The notes under the pieces are model-generated. The model made no database searches and was not told the DNA's origin. It worked only from the letters and a program-made list of their open reading frames with translations. Made by a program: the position numbers and the translations under genes. A DNA stretch of 64,000 nucleotides from Paraphysoderma sedebokerense (taxonomy: Eukaryota; Blastocladiomycota; Physodermatomycetes; Physodermatales; Physodermataceae), in the NCBI GenBank assembly GCA_025602915.1, contig JAHLJZ010000006.1:558001-622000 (forward strand), in the 5' to 3' direction. Shown here piece after piece: positions 4,098 through 57,625 of this stretch; within the stretch, counting starts at the first letter, position 1; each line of letters starts with the position of its first letter.

Positions 4098-5240
4098 CTA
4101 ATAGCAACCATAAGAACCATAATCATAGCTGTGACTATAGTCGCTGTAGTCGTAGTGATCTGAACACAATTGCATTAGGTATATAATATTGATATTTTCA
4201 GAATTGGAATTAGAGCTTACCATAGGAGTAATCCTTGTGGTCATCATGACCGTAGTCGTATCCATAATCATAGTCATAATCTTTGTCGTGATGACCATAA
4301 TCGTATCCGTAGTTGTTATTGTCATAATCTTTCTTCTCGTGGTGACCATAATCGTATCCGTAGTTATTGTAGTCATAATCTTTCTTTTCGTGATGGCCAT
4401 GATCATATCCATAACCGTGATCATGGTCTTTTTTGTCATGGTGACCGTAATCATATCCGTAATTATTGTAGTCGTAGTCTTTCTTTTCGTGGTGACCATG
4501 ATCATATCCATAACCGTGATCATGGTCTTTTTTGTCGTGGTGACCATAATCATATCCGTAGTTGTTATTGTCATAATCTTTCTTCTCGTGGTGACCATAA
4601 TCGTATCCGTAGTTATTGTAGTCATAGTCTTTCTTTTCGTGATGGCCATGTTCATATCCATAACCGTGATCATGGTCTTTATTGTCATGGTGACCGTAAT
4701 CATATCCGTAGTTATTGTAGTCGTAGTCTTTCTTTTCGTGGTGACCATGATCATATCCATAACCGTGATCATGGTCTTTTTTGTCGTGGTGACCATAATC
4801 GTATCCGTAGTTATTGTAGTCATAGTCTTTCTTTTCGTGGTGGCCATAGTCGTATCCGTAACCGTAGTCGTGATCTTTCTTATCATCATGGCCGTAATCT
4901 AATGCGGTCAAATACTCCAGGTTAACTCTATAGAAAATTTGGACGGCCATATACTCATAATGATTTACCATAATCCTTCTTGTCATAGTCATAATCTACA
5001 GAGTCCCAATGCAGAACGTTGCAGATGGTTAGCAAGTCAGGCAAAGAAACGCGAACAGTCCATGTAACCATGTTCAATTAAAGGTAACGCACCATAATCT
5101 TTCTTGCTGTCGTGGTCGTGACCGTAGTCGTAGTCGTTTTTGTAGGAGTTTTCGTATCCGTAAGCTAAGCCAATTTATGTTAATCAAATCATAGTACGAA
5201 ATAGTGATCAGTCATGAGCCGTGAGGATGCACTTACTCAT
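4098..5240 (-). CDS. Low-complexity His/Gly/Tyr/Asp-repeat protein (paralog 1)
   Basis: Five exons: 5237-5240 (only ATGA), 5093-5164, 4969-4995, 4221-4898 and 4098-4159, all introns in phase 1. The protein starts MTYGYENSYKNDYDYGHDHD and is built from imperfect units such as YDYGHHEKKDYDYNNYG and KKDHDHGYGYDHGHH. It ends DYSHSYDYGSYGCY. There is no hydrophobic signal peptide or membrane segment. Composition is dominated by D, Y, G, H, K and N, predicting an intrinsically disordered, perhaps phase-separating or metal-binding protein. A paralog at 47632-49027 has the same 4-nt first exon, the same MTYGY start and the same C-terminus, which validates the gene model. Function is unknown; I match it to no named family. 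A TATA box lies about 90 nt upstream of the ATG. Confidence 0.85.
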
Positions 5241-33942: not shown

Positions 33943-36900
33943 TCAATTGCGTCTCAGTTTTTTTGTTCGTGGTTGATTTTCGACTTCATTGTCACTTTCA
34001 TTTCTGCTATGCTTCTTCAAGTCTTCCTCCTCCTCTGCCTCACTCTCTTCTTCCTCCTGTTGCTCCAAAATCGCTTTATCAAATTTGATATCCCGAACAT
34101 TCAATAACTTAAACGTGCTCAGATACTACAGCGGCAAAATCATGCTGTTAATTAAACGGCTCTTGTAGACGGAAATGGCGTATAAATGAAACATTAGATA
34201 GTGATCTGTGCAATGATACTCACGTCTTTGTTGCTTATTTTTGACAGTTGTCCCAACTTCGAGCTAAACTGCTCAATTCGTTTACGAACCATTGGTACCA
34301 GTTTACTTTCTTTATCAAGAACCACCTATGCAATGGAGATCCATTAATAAACAATAATCAAAAACAGTTAGAAACTAGAGACGGCACCTTTCCCGTGGCA
34401 ATTCCCTTTGTGCCTTTTCCTTTGCCTTTCATTGCTCTCTTTCCCTTGCCTTTCTGATTTCCATCATATTTCGCATGATCTCTGCTCGTTAACAACTCAC
34501 TGAACTTTGGACAGATTTGAACCTTCACCAATTCAATCAGATCATGAGTATTTTTATCAACCCTACTATTCGTACTTGTTTCTTTCAATTTATAATCCAG
34601 CAGTAAATTGATAACCTCGAAAGATGAGTTGAGGTAAATTAAAACTTTGTCAAACGTTGATTGTGGAAGTTTTGACGAAATGATTTCGATCAAGGCTAAG
34701 AGGATATGATAAATGCGTTTCGACAGGCGATTACCTGTTCCTGAGAATTGAGAAAACGTAATCTGACTTTCCGGAACGTAGTCATCTGTCCACAACAGGC
34801 AATAGGAAGAAAAGATACAACAGAGTGAATACTGCGTCGCGCAATAGCTTAAGGAAAGGACAATCCCACCTCGATGCTTCTGCATCAAATTACACTTTTC
34901 ATGCAACTTCTGCAAAAACATTTTAACTTCTTCTAGCAGCGTTCCAATATTTGATAACAGCACATCGGAGACGACGGCAACAGTTCTGTTATCGATAATT
35001 GACATTCCAGAGTACTCATCCATGTTTTCATCATCGTCAATGGCAATAGCGTTACCTAGATGTTCATGCACTCCTTGCGCTACTTTGAATAACTGCGCAA
35101 TCCGAGAGAATTGTTGATTGAAAATTCGACATTTCAGTTACTGACGGCACCTAATTGATAAGAATTATCCAACATTTACGAACCTTATCCAACTCAGCTT
35201 CATTTCTAGTTAAAGTCAACAACAATCCCACCACAATTTTGACAAACTCTTTTTCATCTATTTGGACTTTGCACAGCTTCTCCAGCCAGTTTACCAAATG
35301 ACTTAATACAACTCCGTTATTGGTTTCCGTTTCGATCCTGGCGTCCTCGGTTTTTGTGTATTCCATAGCCAACACTTGAATGATGTTCAACGTCGCCGTA
35401 GATTCCTTGATGAGTACTGAATCGTTCGTGTCATCCAACAACAAACTGGAGGCTAATTTCTAGAAAATTTGATTTAAATCGCCTCTTAGTTCTTTCAATA
35501 TCCGAAGAAAACTAGCAAACTACTGAAATGATACCTTCAACACTTGGATCTGTCTATCCAAATATGATAAATTGCTAGAAGATCCTTCTTGACTAGATGA
35601 AAATGTAATGTTTTCGATAAATTCGGCAGCAGCCGTTGATATATCCAAATTCTGAAAGAAAGGATTCAACTTTTTTGGATACTTCTGAACTATTATATCC
35701 ACAATGCGTTGAAAACTTTCGATGGACAATGTTAACAATGTTCGTCCCTGTTAGAAGGACCGAAGATTTAATACACCGGACTATTGACGATTGAATAATG
35801 TAGAAGCACCTTTTCCTTCTTTCCTCCTCCAGACACTACCGTCGCAGCAAATATACTCTCTTTTTTCAAAAAGCTTTGTAAATAAATTTCAGCCAATGAA
35901 ACGCAATCCTCATACAGCTCCATATCGATGTTGTTATCCGTCGCAGCCTGATGCGTATGTCATGGTGAGATTACATTCTCCCTCGAACAAATACGAATAT
36001 TTTAGGAAAGGTATGCAACATACGCAAGTTAATGCTCCCAAAGCTCTGGTCATTAAATATTTTAACAACGAAAGTTCTGTCGACAATGACTTATCGTCGG
36101 CATTATCGAATTGGATTGTAGATACCATATATTTAAGTAAGCGTGATATTGTAGATAATGACATGATAGTTGATTCAATATGGGGCGGAGCTACTTTTGT
36201 CTCTGTTGGATGAACGAGAGATTAAGCAGAAAATGACACAATGTTAACGAATTACCCGCCAAGAGATGTGCCAGGCAAAGACAATGTAAGAGGAACCATA
36301 CTTTTAGTAGCCGCCGCGTTAAACTTTTCTCTGACGAGATTATGCATCGCATGCATTTTGTTAAATAAATGTACAATAATTGCAAACGCCGCTTCATCGT
36401 TATTCTTCGGATCAGCATTATGCATGTGCAACCGTGTTATGAGTATGTACTCGATCATTGCCTATTCGGATAACGCGCATTGTGTAAGTGAACTGGCCAG
36501 AATCTGCAACGTGAGGAATGGGTAAAATGCGACTATCCACCTCGTAACACCCGCTGACCACCAAACTTCTAACATAATTTTTCGTTGCTTGATCATCACT
36601 GAAACCTACTATCATACTCTTATCCATCTCAAAATCCTCCAAAGTAGCATCCTGTAGCCTGCTGAGTACACTCTCCATTGCACTCCGTCCGTTTTGTATG
36701 GAAATCGGTGTCGAGTATACCGTTTCACTTGCTTCATCGGGATTTGAGAATTGAGCGCGAGATTTTCCCTTCACAAAAGCAGAGGCGCCAAACCCAGATG
36801 CCTTTGTAGGGCAAAGGATGAGCAACAATTGAGAAACGAGCTTGAGTAGCCACGGCACGGGCTCCAGGACTTTGACGTTTAGTTTACCGGCGTCTTCAGT

Positions 36901-39900
36901 TGGTTCCGATGTCTCTGTTCCAATATACACCTTTACTGGACATTTCACGTTTTCGTTCCCTTCAAAAATCTTCAAGAAATGTGGGTACAGAATATCATAC
37001 ACAGCAGGGGCAAGATACTGGAATTGCTTGACCAGAAGAATTTTGTGGAGAGATTGGTATAGTCTGAGACGAAGTTCCGGCTGCTGAGAGGATAGGGTGC
37101 GTCGAAGAAGAGTGAGAAGCTCCAATTGTAGAGGGCTCGGGGTCGGTGTCTGTGATGGAGAAATTGAAGTTGTCCCTGCCAGCCCACCGATTGCTGTCGA
37201 AGGTGAACCGCAAAAGTTCGATGAAGCTGGGACGCCCCCTGAAGATTGAGAAAACGTAGTCTGGAGCAGCAATAAGCAACCAACCAAGCAATTCTCCCGC
37301 GCTGTGACTTCTTTCATGAAAATTCCCTTTTTTAGAGTCAGCATTAAGTTATTTCTGAAGCCAGCATGTAAGACCGCCACAACGCTAAAACATTTCCACA
37401 GCTTGAAAGCCATAGCTATTGGAACTTGAACTATTAAATCGATACAATCTTTAAACACATTAACGTAATCCGCAACCATCGATGGCAGCTCTGTGATAAT
37501 ACACTCAAGTGTATCTAAAAATACTCCGGAGTTCTCTTTCGCAATGATCCTGGAGATAATCTGGTTAAGAATCTCTAAACGGGATATTGACTGAGATTTG
37601 AATATTTCGAGTAATAATTTTCTACCGAAATCATAAAGCTCCATGTCATTGGACGTGACAGAATATTTTCGTAAAGGCAATGATGTTTCTGCAAGTACAG
37701 ACAATCCGGAAATATAGAATTTTCGCTTTTTTTGCTGGGTAAAAAAGCTAGGAGAATTATCTTTAATACCGTCGAGCAGTAGTAATCCGAGCTTCACAAT
37801 GGAGGGTGAAACTTGTTCCCAACCACGAGCAGACTTCGTTAAGATGGTTTCAAACAAATGATCTAACTCAACCTTTTGGAATCCGGTCAAGCCTATTCAA
37901 CATTTCAAAAGCAAAAGCTGTAAATTCAATCCCTGGATTCCAATGGACTTCAAGCCAAACCTCGAGCCCAACCAGCGTTTTCCAGTCGTTTTTGGAATGT
38001 AATTGCTTGGTTGATTTGAGACTTCAAAAATGTAAAGCACTGAATGGCAAATAGTTGCTATCAACATCGTGCATAATAAGCGTCAACAAAATGCTGAAGG
38101 TACCCAATCCTCCCAATGAGATATTCTGGCCATGGCTAGAATCAAAGACACATTAAACGGTTTTAAGTACTCCATTTTTCCTTCCTTCATATATTCTTGA
38201 AATGCTTGTCCTAGTCTCTAGATCATTCAAATGAACGCCATGTGTTAAAGATTCGAAGAGAGTTAAAATCAAAGAGGTAAAAACAATGGAAGGTCACATA
38301 CAAAATCTTTCTGCACCGCGGTGGCGACATGAACTAGTACTGTTCCTTCAGTCTCAGCTAGTTCTTGCATTCTTCTCATAACTTCTTCTTTCTCTGTTTT
38401 GCTCAACTGATTTTGTGCCATTTGGAACTCTAATCGTTCGTTCGCGTTGGCGAAAAATGAAGCAATATGGTGAATGGCAATGTCGGGAAAACCCTATTTG
38501 CATTTGAATAGATTGGAGATAATGAAAAAACAGAAGATTAGATCAAGGAAGACTTTTGTAATGCAGAACGGTGAAGAGAGGTGGGACGACGAATCAAATA
38601 ATGAATACTCAACTGGTTTTCCTTCCTTTGTACGAGCGAGATGAAGCAACTGATATATTAAAGGTGGAATTTCACTTAAAGAAAGTTCATCCACCCTTCT
38701 AACGCTGTCATCGATGCTGCCGCTAAATTTTAGAAATCTAATACAGAAATGAGAATGAGAATGAGCTCACAGTAAAGAGACAGGGAGATAAGCGTGGACT
38801 AACCCGGTCAATTTTTCGACAGCACTTTTCAACTGACCTCGATCCATTATGACATCCTTCAATACCCCCGCCATTGCAATCGTATACTTCAGATTCCACT
38901 TAACTCGCATCAATCCATTCAAGATATCGGCTTTAAAGGCCACGCCTGAAATTGAATTCCATCCGTTCATTTCGGCCTCCGCTACATGTGAATTTGAATT
39001 GTTGATCTCCTGAAATCGATTGGGATGTAGCGACGGGGAAATGAGGCTATCATGAGTCGAAAGTTGGTTAAGAAGGTGGGGGAAAAGCTCGTAGAGTTTT
39101 AGGTGAGGCGAATGTGGGGATTGTGCAGAAATGGATTCAGCAATAAAAATAGTAAATCGTAGGAGGGACAATTCGGGGAATTCTACCGGTAAGTATGTTA
39201 ATTTCGAGTACATTCTGGGACGATGGTCGCGAAGCTATATTTACGTTCCAGCTAGTAAGGCATGAAAATATAGGAAAACCAGTCAACGTCTGGACTTAAT
39301 GAATTGAAGATGCATTCTGCAGGCAACTCAGAGATATTGATTCGGTGAAAAGCATTTACATACCATTAGCAGCAAAAAATCAGTTAGCATCTTTGCCACT
39401 TTGTCGGTGTCGGGGAAAGTCTCCGTTTTGATATACCTGTTGTAATATGAGAATATAAAGTCAATTGATCACTCTGATTACAGCACTAAATATATTCTGC
39501 GACATCATGTGAATTAAGCATCGAACACCGACGTCACAACTGATATCGCAGATGGGTTTCAACAAAGAAATCAAAACGCGACATCTCAAAACATTATACT
39601 AAAACAAACCATTTCCTGAATATCATTAACATTTCTTCCAACCTCCTTGCTCCAGCGTCTTCGTCTTTCGACGAGGCTATAGGTAGGAATTTCAAATAAA
39701 CGAAGGAGCATCAGCAGACTGTAATTTGTTCGTCTTTGAAAGACTCGGGTTGGGCCGTAAGCCCGACCTTGAAAATATCTAGACTCTTTCGAAGAGGCCA
39801 CAAGAAAAAAACAGCGAAGTAGAAATTAGAATGATTATTACAGTTAACGACAAGCTGGATCAATTCCATCGGTTGAGCATGGATTTCTTCATTATCAATC

Positions 39901-47631: not shown

Positions 47632-49027
47632 ATGAGTATGTAGTCCTGTTTGATATTCACTGATCAATGAATATTTGAAATTAATATACTTTTGCTGCTT
47701 TAATTAGCTTACGGATACGACAACAAAAACGAATACGGCTACGGCCACGATGACAAGAAGGATTACGGTTATGAAGACTCCAAGGACTACGGATACGACA
47801 ACAAAGACTATGGCTATGATGACAAGAAAGACTACGGTTACGAAGACTCCAAGGACTATGGCTATGACAACAAAGATTATGGCTATGACGACAAGAAAGA
47901 CTACGGCTACGAAGACTCCAAAGACTATGGCTATGACAACAAAGATTACGGCTATGATGACAAGAAAGACTACGGATACGAAGACTCCAAGGACTATGGC
48001 TATGACAACAAAGATTACGGCTATGATGACGAGAAGGATTATGGCTACGAAGACTCCAAGGATTATGGCTATGACAACAAAGACTACGGATACGATAACA
48101 AAGATTACGGTTATGACAACAAGGATTACGGTTATGACAACAAAGACTATGGTTATGATGACAAGAAAGACTACGGTTACGAAGACTCCAAGGACTATGG
48201 TTATGACAACAAAGACTATGGATACGACAACAAAGACTACGGATACGATAACAAGGACTATGGTTACGACAACAAAGACTATGGTTATGACAACAAAGAC
48301 TACGGATACGATAACAAGGATTACGGTTATGACTCCAAGGACTACGGTTATGACAACAAGGACTATGGTTATGACAACAAGGATTACGGCTACGACTCCA
48401 AGGACTATGGTTACGACTCCAAAGACTACGGTTATGACAACAAGGACTATGGTTACGACTCCAAAGACTATGGTTACGACTCCAAAGACTATGGTTATGA
48501 CAACAAAGACTACGGTTACGACTCCAAAGACTACGGCTACGACAACAAGGACTATGGTTACGACAACAAAGACTATGGTTATGACAACAAAGACTACGGA
48601 TACGATAACAAAGACTACGGCTACGACAACAAGGACTACGGTTATGACAACAAGGACTATGGTTATGACAACAAGGATTACGGCTACGACTCCAAGGACT
48701 ATGGTTATGACAACAAGGACTACGGTTATGACAACAAGGACTACGGATACGATAACAAGGATTACGGTTACGACAACAAGGATTACGGTTATGATGATAA
48801 CAAAGATTATGGCTATGGTTATGATGACAACAAAGACTATGGTTATGATTATAGCCACGATGATTGCAAGGATTATTCCTATGGTAAGTATTCTTGCTGG
48901 ATCTGTTTAATTTTGCCTTTCTTACTAAAATCCTTCCTTTACTGTAGAACACCAAGATTACAACGACTACAGCCACAGCTATGACTACAGTCACAGCTAT
49001 GATTATGGAAGCTATGGATGCTATTAG
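47632..49027 (+). CDS. Asp-Tyr-Gly repeat protein (paralog 2)
   Basis: Exons 47632-47635 (ATGA), 47708-48883 and 48948-49027, both introns phase 1. It begins MTYGYDNKNEYGYGHDDKKD and consists of roughly 60 units of the type KDYGYDNKDYGYDS, where the variable pair is DN, DS, ED or DD. It ends DYSHSYDYGSYGCY, as in the paralog at 4098-5240. Codons for the same Tyr and Gly vary freely (TAT/TAC, GGT/GGC/GGA) while the residues are kept, which supports selection on the protein rather than a passive satellite. Unlike paralog 1 it has very little His. No signal peptide or membrane segment. Predicted wholly disordered, strongly acidic/aromatic; function unknown. Possibilities include a structural or adhesive material or a condensate scaffold, but nothing in the sequence decides. 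Confidence 0.87.
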
Positions 49028-49464
49028 ATTAGCTAGTCTAACTAGATCCTTGCTGTTAGATCCCAAAGCAGAGAAGTTAAAATGTTCAAGATCGCATAAA
49101 TTTTGGTGGTTTGGAATACAGGCTTGTTAGAGGTCGAATAAAATCTTGCTTTTTGGGAAACATCTCTGTCTTGCAACTTTCGCACTATATTCTCGCTTTC
49201 CATACTCCAGATTTTTGTTTAGGTCTCAAAGGTATCTTGTGTATTAAAAGTTTCCAGTTTACGAAGGGGTGACTTCATTGTCATCCGCGGAACGTTTGAC
49301 TTACACTTCAGCGCCCCGAAAATGCGATCACAATTAAGACTTTATTTTGATTCTGAAAACTTACACCATTATGTAAATTTGGAAAATGAGGTTCGCTTGA
49401 GGTCGGAAATCTCATGAAAGCATTACAATAAACTAGTTAAATGAATCCTTTGGCATTTCTCATA
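49028..49464. other. Intergenic, nothing recognised
   Basis: About 440 bases between the stop of the repeat gene and the tRNA-like remnant. Contains an AATAAA at 49138, a likely polyadenylation signal about 110 nt past the stop. Confidence 0.5.
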
Positions 49465-53562: not shown

Positions 53563-56500
53563 ATGATTCAGAAACTATTCATACTTCCTCGTCCGATTTT
53601 TTTGCTGCTCCTCTTATACTCTACCGCCGCGGCTTCCAATCCGCATTTACGTTGGTAATTAACGTTTTGATTTGAAGGACCGTTCCCATGTGTATGGAGG
53701 CTTACTTTTACTCTTGACATATGTTATCTAGGGACATTCATGTCGTTTCTAGCAATTCATCATACCAAATTGATTCTTACGCTCTACCTAGCATTCAGCC
53801 GTCGTCTAACTATAAATTCCGAGTGAGAATAGTCAATGCACAGGTAATTTCTTTACATATCTTGATAGTGTCTTGAATATTGCGTTCTTAACACAAAAAG
53901 TCACTGCTGCAGGATAATTCAGTGTGCTCAACATGCGCCAAAGAGTTCTCTGCGATTGGTGGGAACCCGATCATTCAGTTCAATTCGCAACAAAAAACAA
54001 TCGTCGCTGCCAGTGTAAACAATACATGGCGTCAGGGTAAGTCCTTTTCCCGAAATCAGCATTCCAATCAATCATCCCAATTTGGTTCAGTAACAATATA
54101 TGATACTCTGTACAGATATTCGTGAACCGGTGTCAGAATGGTTAATCCCTTTCATGACAAGTTCATCAGGCCACCTGTTGATCGATGTCACGACAAATGG
54201 ATTCTCAACACCGCGTTTGATCAATGGCGGATTAGATGATGGGCAATTCGATTTTTCAGTTAGTCCTTTTCAACGCATGAACGAGCGAGGGGAAATTCAA
54301 GTTGCGTCAAACTCTTCATCTTCGCGGCAGTGATGTTTCTAAATCGATTTCTATCCAGCATCTGCTTGGAACGAAGATCTCAGTGGCCAACGCCGCCTTC
54401 AAGCCTAATTCACCGAACCAATTCAAGTTAGATTTCATACCTGAAGTATCAACCGAAAGTTTTGCCATATCTAATCGCTTAGATTCGAGTTTCGTCCTGC
54501 TTTCCGAAGATGATTGGGAATCCTTTGAAATCTTAAAGTTGGCGTTTCATGGAGTTGAGATGAACGAGTTATGTAAGTTTCAGAAATTTCGAATTGAAGT
54601 GTATAGATGTAATTAATGCATTAACTGCTGAATTCTTTCACTGGTGAACACTTTTCTAGCCGACAACGTTTGCGATGGAACTGTTGGCCTCAACCTCCAT
54701 TCTTACATCGCATACCAAAATACCACTTTGATACATACTGATGCTGGACTATTTCAAGCCAAAGTACTCGCAAATTTTATCTTCGATTATTGTTGGATCT
54801 GCGTTTTTACCCATGAATGAATTTTTTGCTTTTTGGTCATAGAAAACGAAAACAGGAGGTTACGAATACGTTCGTGTGCTAAAAGAGTGTATCAGCGGAG
54901 TCCAATACACGACACAGGCGGATGAGTATGCTCCAGAATGTCTTACTACTTTTGCATTCGGAAAAGCGAACAAAAAGATATGGAAAATGATTGCTGAAAG
55001 TGGTATCTTTCAGGAATTATTGGTATGTATCTGATTACATCGGTTGCTCGGGTGGGCTCGCCTAATCTTCAGCTCTTAACAAAATGAAGGGAGTCTCTCA
55101 AACCACAATTACACAATTCTTGAACGACCCTGCAATCGAAATCATCGGTGGAGACAAAAGTGTTATCGCCTGTGAAATAGACGTGTTCTTGGTGAAAACG
55201 TCAAACGGAAAATTCAGTGTTGTGACGTTTAATGTGAGCTCTACCATTTTTCTTACTAGCGCATGCTGTTTAATCAAGTATTATCTTATTGATTATCGGT
55301 TGGTTAGGAAACGTCCAAGAAATGGACTCAAACTTTTACATTCCCTGATAGTATTCCAGTCGGTCAGTTTTTATCTTCTTGACAATATCTTCGATAGTCT
55401 GTCTATTCCTTGCTGCGCAATTTACACTCCAATTTTCAATTCCTCAGTATCAACAACAGATCCCGTGTTAATCTTAAACAATGATTCTGCTATTATTCCG
55501 CCCTCATCTAACGTTAGCAGTAACCGGACGTTATTGTTGACAGGAATAAGATTCGGCAGAGAATCATCAAACGACTTGTTTCTCTATGGTAGTGCATTAA
55601 TTTACAGGTACGATCACCGTAATCAGATTTTCATCCGCGATTTTAACTGATTTGCCGGACAGTCCCGATGGAGGAAAGTCGATGTACCTCCTACAGTCAT
55701 TTCCTGAACCGATCACTGTTTCCAGCTTTTCCACATCTAGTAATGGAGCTTCGTACGCTCTGATGACATCAGATGGTCAAGTAATATCTCATCTGCTTAG
55801 TATGCGTGTATCACCATGTAATAACTCTTCGGTCCGTGTTAGATTCATTTCGTGGATGTTGCACTACGAAAATTTGTTCAACTTCAACCGTCCACCCCAA
55901 TTTCACTGGATACGAATTCCCTGGTGTTCTTCGATAAGTTGAATAATTTATGGAATTTAAATGCGTTTGTTAATGGGAGTGTGGTAGATATAGAGAGGAC
56001 GAAAGTAGATTTGGATGCCTACAGCACGTTATGGGGAACTTTAAATCCAGTAAGTTACCGCGTAGGCATGATTTATTCTATCTTTTTTTAACAGCAGCTG
56101 TATTTTTATCACCGTCTGCCATTAGAGGGCTTGCCCGTACGACGAGATATTCTTCGTAGGATCAATTGAACCGGTTTATCTACGGCAACGGTATTTACTG
56201 AAGTTCAGACTCTCAAATATGAAGGACACAACTTTGCCGTTTTTGTGGTAGAGAAACGCCAAATACTGATGTTCACTTTTCGTTTTACTCAGCTTGAAAC
56301 CATCTGAGGCGACTTTTCCGACATCTATATTCCTTGATCGGAGACAATCCTATCTATTCGAGATTCAGATGACTCCAAATGATAATTCTGAGCTGAGAGA
56401 CTTAAAAATATATTTTCAACTGAGTAGAGAAAAATATGTACATTTAACAGTTGACAGACTGGAACTTATTGAGCAGAGGAAGGTAGTTTACAAGGTATAG

Positions 56501-57625
56501 TGGTCGCCGCCATATATACCAAATATCATCGAGCCTTAATTGATTTTTCAATTGGTTTAAGGTCGAAGTCCGAGATACGGCAACGTTACGAAATCATTCG
56601 CATCCAGGTGAAGATTTAATACTGACTGAACTGAGAATGACAGTACACAATGGAGCAGGATGTGACAGTTCGAAAAACGACGGAAATCCCATGGTTAGTA
56701 GTGGGCCTGTTTATAGAAACAATTTTTGCTCTTAGATAAGTCTTGCTGGTAATTAACGAAAACTAGTATTCATCGACGAGATCGTTAATCATACACACCG
56801 GCTGTCCACCATATCAATCCGCCGTTTACACTTCGGGGGTTCTCAAGCATCATGAGTGTGAAAATCCGGATCCAAATGTTCCTTGCGTATTCTTCGATGA
56901 CGGTAACTTGTTTTCCAGGCTTTTCAATATCAAAAGCAAGTCTTTTGATATTTTTTTTATGTAGATTATAAACCGAATTTCGTTATCACCGATGAAGTCT
57001 CTTCTTTATCGAGAAATTATACCGGACCTTACATTCTTCGCGTCATTGGAGGTGGACTATCTTTAAATACTATTGTAGATTATCAAGTTGACGAAGTACC
57101 ACTGATCGATTCAAGTACTTGGGCGCCTCTCAATGATTTGGAGGAATACAATGGATATTCAATTTATAACATGAGCTTTAACGATATCACGTATGTCAAA
57201 TTTCAACCTACTCGTGAGTTACAAATGAATTAACCCGAACTGTATATAGCTGGTCTTGCGGCGTCAATTCAAAATGTGGTTCAATTATTCCTAATTTCCC
57301 CCATGGACCGAAATATTACTTGAAAATCGAAATGTCAACAGACACCGTCTCTTCCAATATTTCTTATTGTTCTCTAAACACTGTTTACATCATTCGATTG
57401 TACGGGTTACCCCTCGACTTTACTGTTTCATTGATTGCTACGTTATCGACGCTATTTGTGACGACAATAGGAGTTTGTGGGGTTGCGGTGGTTAAAGAGC
57501 GAAAACACATTGGAACTTCCGACAATTCTTTGTGGGAACGCGCAGACTCCACCGGTGTAGAAGCCAGCGAGAAGGATAGAGTAACAAAAGAAAGACGGTT
57601 TCGAATTGGAACTTCTAAGTTGTGA
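53563..57625 (+). CDS. CatSper channel auxiliary subunit, CATSPERG-like
   Basis: About 18 small exons; checked joins keep phase. Signal peptide MIQKLFILPRPIFLLLLLYS. A long extracellular region follows, beta-rich with many Asn-x-Ser/Thr sites (IHVVSSNSSYQIDSY, GVSQTTITQFLNDP, MTSDGQ, VDVALRKFVQLQPS). The membrane-proximal part carries the CatSper beta/gamma/delta/epsilon hallmarks: RACPYDEIFFV, HTGCPPYQSAV, a CENPDPNVPCVFFDD block (human CATSPERG CVNVNPEMPCFLF), PNFVITDEVSS, GPYILRVIGGG (human GSYVLLVVGGG), ITWSCGVNSKCG, SNISYCSLNTVYIIRLYGLP (human TYCNYQLTF...HGLPL). A single TM (FTVSLIATLSTLFVTTIGVC) and a short basic cytoplasmic tail end the protein, as in the family. In sperm these subunits form the extracellular canopy of the flagellar Ca2+ channel. 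Gamma is the best match by eye; delta/epsilon cannot be excluded. Confidence 0.85.

Follow-up and report, generated by a model that had tools for sequence, protein, structure and literature searches.

The question raised by the locus studied here is whether a fungus encodes CATSPERG, the gamma subunit of the CatSper channel, and, if it does, whether this gene is accompanied by the rest of the channel complex. The locus lies in a 64,000-nucleotide stretch of DNA from Paraphysoderma sedebokerense ("the window"; contig JAHLJZ010000006.1, positions 558,001 to 622,000), a parasite of algae that belongs to Blastocladiomycota. A sequence-only reading of the window had proposed that a CATSPERG-type subunit is encoded there. 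Its exons were joined by hand, without a gene finder, by choosing introns according to frame, splice sites and size, and the resulting model is listed in Table 1 with the other features discussed below. All 17 introns are GT-AG and 45–100 nt long, and no stop codon interrupts the reading frame between the ATG at 53563 and the stop at 57625; with all 18 exons open in this way, a pseudogene was rejected. A home-made ab initio splicing model, based on codon and splice-site signals, missed the gene. The C-terminal half of the hand-joined model is supported by Pfam and PDB matches that cross several exon joins, and the predicted N-terminal half rests on open frames, splice sites and a sub-threshold propeller match.

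Only an N-terminal signal and one C-terminal transmembrane segment (a stretch at about residues 879–906) exceed a 19-residue hydropathy mean of 1.6 in the product, which also carries 12 N-x-S/T sequons. Hydropathy and sequence thus bear out the type I topology that had been read from the letters (signal peptide, large ectodomain with sequons, one transmembrane segment and a short tail).

The spliced product was scanned with hmmscan against Pfam-A and with phmmer against PDB. The profile search, a check suggested with the sequence-only reading, gave significant matches to CATSPERG profiles and none to an unrelated family that was better: two CATSPERG domains score above their curated cut-offs, and the four families that remain beyond those in Table 1 are all weak (Ig_Rha78A_N 0.0062, fn3 0.043, CATSPERB_2nd 0.069 and ATPgrasp_TupA 0.09). 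No CatSper family in Pfam-A matched the N-terminal quarter. Four PDB chains were matched, two of CATSPERG (7eeb_F, 2.7e-27, from what we take to be the mouse complex, and 9ubw_F, 5.3e-27) and two of FGFR4 (0.31 and 1.2). Gamma is the sole CatSper subunit type among these four, and CATSPERB_2nd reaches just E=0.069 in Pfam, so the protein resembles gamma more closely than beta, delta or epsilon. The best-conserved part in the alignment to 7eeb_F is the membrane-proximal half, where GCPP, C-x7-PC, GGG-x2-LNTI-x-DY, W-x-C, YC and GLPL align with the gamma chain; the conserved cysteines and the GGG sit in the CATSPERG_C domain. The cysteine and Gly-Gly-Gly landmarks noted earlier are therefore real, except that the "VPC" given there is MPC in the alignment. 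The protein shares with 7eeb_F and 9ubw_F the C-terminal and Ig-like domains in the expected order, the landmark cysteines, GGG-x2-LNTI, the signal peptide, the C-terminal transmembrane segment and the short tail; it differs in being 948 aa long where 7eeb_F has 1145 aa, in its sub-threshold propeller match and in its N-terminal quarter. PF22846 has two exon-level matches genome-wide, both in this gene (C6:614928-615442, which is window 56928-57442), and the gene is therefore single-copy. Judged by these matches, P. sedebokerense has its CATSPERG orthologue at this locus, and in this the initial proposal was confirmed.

Table 1. Features of the CATSPERG locus (window coordinates) and other CatSper-related genes of the assembly (contig handles, with coordinates where given).
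Feature	Location	Strand	Basis
CATSPERG coding span	53563..57625	+	Hand-joined splice model, 18 exons, 948 aa; Pfam and PDB homology
CATSPERG exons 1-9	53563-53654, 53732-53843, 53913-54036, 54116-54258, 54359-54572, 54660-54763, 54843-55022, 55090-55233, 55308-55362	+	
CATSPERG exons 10-18	55448-55607, 55663-55780, 55843-56049, 56126-56247, 56293-56494, 56562-56693, 56767-56902, 56965-57190, 57250-57625	+	
Signal peptide region	53563..53637	+	Residues 1-25, hydrophobic core about 1-24; hydropathy, without signal-peptide predictor
Beta-propeller-like region, PF15064 CATSPERG_beta-prop	54843..55896	+	Residues 264-500, introns in span; E=6e-4, 19.1 bits, below cut-off 27
CATSPERG_Ig-like domain PF22851	56315..56660	+	Residues 600-692, introns in span; E=1.9e-8, 34.7 bits, cut-off 27
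CATSPERG_C domain PF22846	56851..57442	+	Residues 732-888, introns in span; E=3.6e-22, 79.7 bits, cut-off 27.6
Single transmembrane segment	57419..57493	+	Residues about 881-905; hydropathy
Charged cytoplasmic tail, predicted	57494..57622	+	Residues 906-948, 43 aa; splice model and hydropathy
CATSPER1-type pore	C47		Best one-domain PDB match CATSPER1, 149 bits
CATSPER2-type pore	C41		Best one-domain PDB match CATSPER2, 121 bits
CATSPER2-type pore, second locus	C36		Best one-domain PDB match CATSPER2, 147.9 bits
CATSPER3-type pore	C40:140001-148000 (L035)	minus	Best one-domain PDB match CATSPER3, 156.9 bits
CATSPER3-type pore, second locus	C1:446001-454000 (L036)	plus	Best one-domain PDB match CATSPER3, 135.5 bits
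CATSPER4-type pore	C5		Best one-domain PDB match CATSPER4, 148.6 bits
CATSPERB	C64		CATSPERB_C 8.4e-11; 3.4e-14 on joined exons
CATSPERE-like subunit	C5:586495-587312		CATSPERD-E_C 8.9e-13; 5.2e-30 on joined exons
Hv1-like tandem pair	C139:15001-24500 (L041)		Each with RLWR motif and heptad-like tail

The view of this DNA as fungal held up. Besides the species' place in Blastocladiomycota, the genome has 46 matches to the chitin synthase family PF03142 (which also matches in 4 of the 14 prokaryote controls), five to Zn_clus (0 of the 14 controls) and six to the radial-spoke family PF04712 (best 9.7e-43), the last of which means that at least one gene of a motile axoneme is present. Transient uniflagellated zoospores are reported in the accessible part of PMC4851982, with which excerpts of PMC6446968 agree; the latter describe the first propagule release as mostly amoeboid swarmers and coatless spores.

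The remaining CatSper genes were then looked for across the genome, as had been suggested. Ion_trans has 47 matches genome-wide, of which 11 regions were read, leaving out the four-domain-like clusters C14, C76 and C32 and the copies with equal scores on C82, C97, C78 and C79. For six of these 11 loci, hand-joined exons were searched against PDB and the best one-domain chain was taken; four-domain Ca/Na channels, whose scores are summed over several repeats, for that reason top five of the six lists, and CATSPER3 ranks first overall only in the C40 list. Read from such hand-joined exons, the genome holds four different single-domain pore types, CATSPER1-4, so the absence of pore genes, which would have spoken against the gamma assignment, did not occur. 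CATSPERB was found as well, with a clear match in Pfam and a weak one in PDB (8e-4). For CATSPERD and CATSPERE, one D/E locus is present, nearer to epsilon (91 bits) than to delta (55 bits). An epsilon-like gene fits the statement in the available part of PMC5362262 that epsilon is ancient and delta a later arrival. The CATSPERD propeller family PF15020 matched nothing in the genome, which says little since its control matched nowhere either. The CatSper genes are not clustered but spread across contigs; CATSPER4 and the E-type gene are both on C5, about 390 kb apart.

For HVCN1, also named for searching, the genome has the Hv1-like pair, whose RLWR we take to be the Hv1 voltage-sensor motif; a Pfam scan of one copy gave Ion_trans only. 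Such a pair would suit alkaline gating of CatSper. SLC9C did not appear: no contig carries both an exchanger match (25 in the genome at E≤0.1) and a cNMP match (15 at E≤0.01), and an exchanger that combines a voltage sensor with a cNMP domain was not found. Exchangers with a long helical tail, presumably of the SOS1/SLC9C kind, lie in tandem on C56 (49823-57161; L051 and L053) and on C156 (L055), and the frames read there show neither a voltage sensor nor a cNMP domain. The set thus resembles the animal complex in having CATSPER1-4, B, G and E-type genes, and departs from it in having two CATSPER2 and two CATSPER3 loci, a single D/E locus and no SLC9C with both domains seen in the genome. Some channel matches recur at equal scores (C41:31842-32813, C82:73763-74734 and C97:31842-32813; also C55, C78 twice and C79), and these equal scores, with equal coordinates on C41 and C97, suggest duplicated contigs or haplotypes in the assembly.

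One of the pore types departs from its animal counterparts in the selectivity filter. Both CATSPER3 genes read TASNW at the selectivity filter, with Ser-Asn in place of Asp-Gly, where the mouse CATSPER3 chain aligned to the C40 gene reads TVDGW. The Asp of the T-x-D-x-W motif is kept in CATSPER1 (TLDEW), CATSPER2 (TLDNW, both loci) and CATSPER4 (TQDGW), so CATSPER3 is the exception at both of its loci. The splice join at the filter is the sole GT-AG option between the anchors in both genes, and the public proteins P0001 and P0002 carry the same TASNW letters as the C40 and C1 genes. A 2008 survey (PMC2572835), in the part available, calls this Asp "absolutely conserved" among the invertebrate and vertebrate CatSpers studied.

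We aligned 74 of the 78 database matches to CATSPER3, leaving out the four weakest. In these rows the filter residue is Asp (D) 57 times, Ser (S) 11 times, Glu (E) three times and Val (V) twice, and one row has a gap. The S row P0068 (Coelomomyces) has a broken alignment at the filter and was not counted; the 10 countable S rows are eight named Blastocladiomycota (Paraphysoderma twice, Catenaria, Blastocladiella twice, Allomyces, and Sorochytrium twice, one with a gap just before the filter) and two rows without species name. Membership of the phylum was looked up for three of the S-row genera, and the others we assume to belong to it. Eight of the nine named Blastocladiomycota rows are thus readable at the filter, and all eight have Ser. 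Glu is found in Cladochytrium (a chytrid), a nemertean and one row without species name, and Val in two rows without species name that are placed among chytrids; because of these rows the loss of the filter Asp is not unique to the Ser clade, having occurred elsewhere too. The named rows of chytrids and relatives nevertheless all have an acidic residue (Asp, but for the Glu of Cladochytrium), in contrast to the Ser of readable Blastocladiomycota.

In a tree of 72 CATSPER3 rows (without P0073 and P0074), Coelomomyces groups with the 10 S rows in a single clade supported at 100/98, and in a 71-row tree, from which the filter columns and P0068 had been removed, the S rows form one side of a branch with SH-aLRT 98; the latter needs one change, as against 9.5 in shuffles. 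Since both trees have a single S clade, the Ser filter is likely to have arisen once, no later than the base of the phylum as sampled. The Ser may alter calcium selectivity. According to the accessible part of PMC10120453, which does not cover the Blastocladiomycota Ser, the filter residue and the next one govern selectivity in one-domain channels. A larger proposal, to which we give an even chance, is that the channel was re-tuned: the ancestor of the phylum would have swapped the CATSPER3 Asp for Ser, so that the filter ring would hold three acidic residues and a neutral fourth and would discriminate differently between Ca2+ and Na+, under a full CATSPERB/G/E canopy and in the service of zoospore or gamete steering. 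The sequence part of that proposal is seen in the aligned CATSPER3 rows; for the other three filters and the canopy, the reading comes from a single species. We found no literature report of the filter change, in searches whose coverage of subscription journals is poor. Loss of the acidic residue from CATSPER3 in every readable named Blastocladiomycota row offers a natural experiment on calcium selection by a heteromeric pore.

Could the resemblance to CATSPERG be that of an unrelated beta-rich, cysteine-bearing surface protein? The weak Ig_Rha78A_N, fn3 and ATPgrasp_TupA matches are what such a protein might give, yet the CATSPERG_C and PDB matches, the domain order and the topology refute it; two Pfam domains above curated cut-offs together with the PDB match exclude chance, and we attach almost no probability to this explanation. 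That the gene came from an animal or protist, as contamination or by recent transfer, seems only slightly less improbable. It would agree with the protein-database search, in which no relative of the product from any species, whether another fungus or P. sedebokerense itself, was matched by residues 540-948 (E≤0.01) or 712-892 (E≤1). Because that search depends on exact 5-residue words in common, distant orthologues could escape it; we infer that an own-species protein in the database would have matched if its length were suitable (0.55 to 1.75 times), and the public gene set of the species may therefore lack this gene. Against contamination, the contig that contains the gene measures at least 622 kb, and the window also has FANCI, DEK_C and Ctr genes; short introns are common to this gene and the CATSPER3 genes of the assembly; and those CATSPER3 genes, public under the species' name, group with Blastocladiomycota in the tree. 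Contig context, intron size and CATSPER3 placement led us to reject it.

There remains the role of the protein. A CATSPERG-derived protein might have been retained without a channel, for example at the surface of amoeboid swarmers, which are common propagules. The divergence of its N-terminal half beyond any Pfam cut-off and the prevalence of swarmers and coatless spores in the first release (excerpts of PMC6446968) would suit this, but flagellated zoospores exist (PMC4851982, in part), and the genome has kept all four types of pore along with two more canopy subunits. In the mammalian complex the gamma ectodomain belongs to a canopy above the pore, and the membrane-proximal half of CATSPERG meets the pore. 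It is this pore-contacting half that is conserved best, and we regard a protein without channel role as unlikely. We consider it very probable instead that the CATSPERG orthologue serves a CatSper channel. Its ectodomain would most likely join CATSPERB and the CATSPERE-type subunit in an extracellular canopy over a heterotetrameric CATSPER1-4 pore in the zoospore flagellar membrane, with its single transmembrane segment packed beside a pore subunit. Such a channel would admit Ca2+ to the flagellum, probably upon voltage and alkalinisation given the Hv1-like genes, and the Ca2+ entry would alter how the flagellum beats and how the transient swimming stage steers. What is observed is the homology to gamma, the order of the domains, the single copy and the presence of pore and auxiliary genes in one genome; that the complex assembles, sits in the flagellum, is gated in this way and affects swimming is inferred.

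How far this is new may be judged from the literature and databases. CATSPER3 is named in public records for many flagellated fungi, and Allomyces, Blastocladiella and chytrids are like Paraphysoderma in having named CATSPER3 orthologues; the available part of PMC13358043, the sole paper returned by a literature search for CatSper in Blastocladiomycota (coverage of subscription journals being poor), lists CATSPER1 and CATSPER2 among flagellated-fungus proteins and states that the complex is not retained by all. The portions available of PMC5362262 (2017, eLife) describe a survey of auxiliary subunits that includes Allomyces, with beta, gamma and epsilon of ancient origin, and those of PMC10120453 a complex kept whole in some single-celled eukaryotes. 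With CatSper in flagellated fungi and single-celled eukaryotes already in print or in databases, a blastoclad CATSPERG extends a known pattern. The novelty claimed in the sequence-only reading was somewhat overstated, in that fungal CatSper (PMC13358043) and the survey with Allomyces (PMC5362262) had been reported before.

A canopy subunit, four pore types and two auxiliaries in one fungal genome are most simply explained by a whole CatSper in the animal-fungal ancestor, and on the simplest reading swimming fungi still carry the whole machine and not a stray channel. The blastoclads Allomyces and Blastocladiella are laboratory organisms. Since, in addition, calcium influx is needed for Allomyces sperm chemotaxis (PMC4685582, in its available part), CatSper could be studied outside sperm.

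Elsewhere in the window, a FANCI gene at 36421-37896 on the minus strand (FANCI_S2 and FANCI_HD2) encodes a component of the Fanconi anaemia pathway, and the DEK_C and Ctr genes are likewise eukaryotic-type. Two regions, 4101-4995 and 47684-49126, hold long overlapping repeat-protein frames (DYGYDDKKDYGYED-type) in several frames and on both strands.
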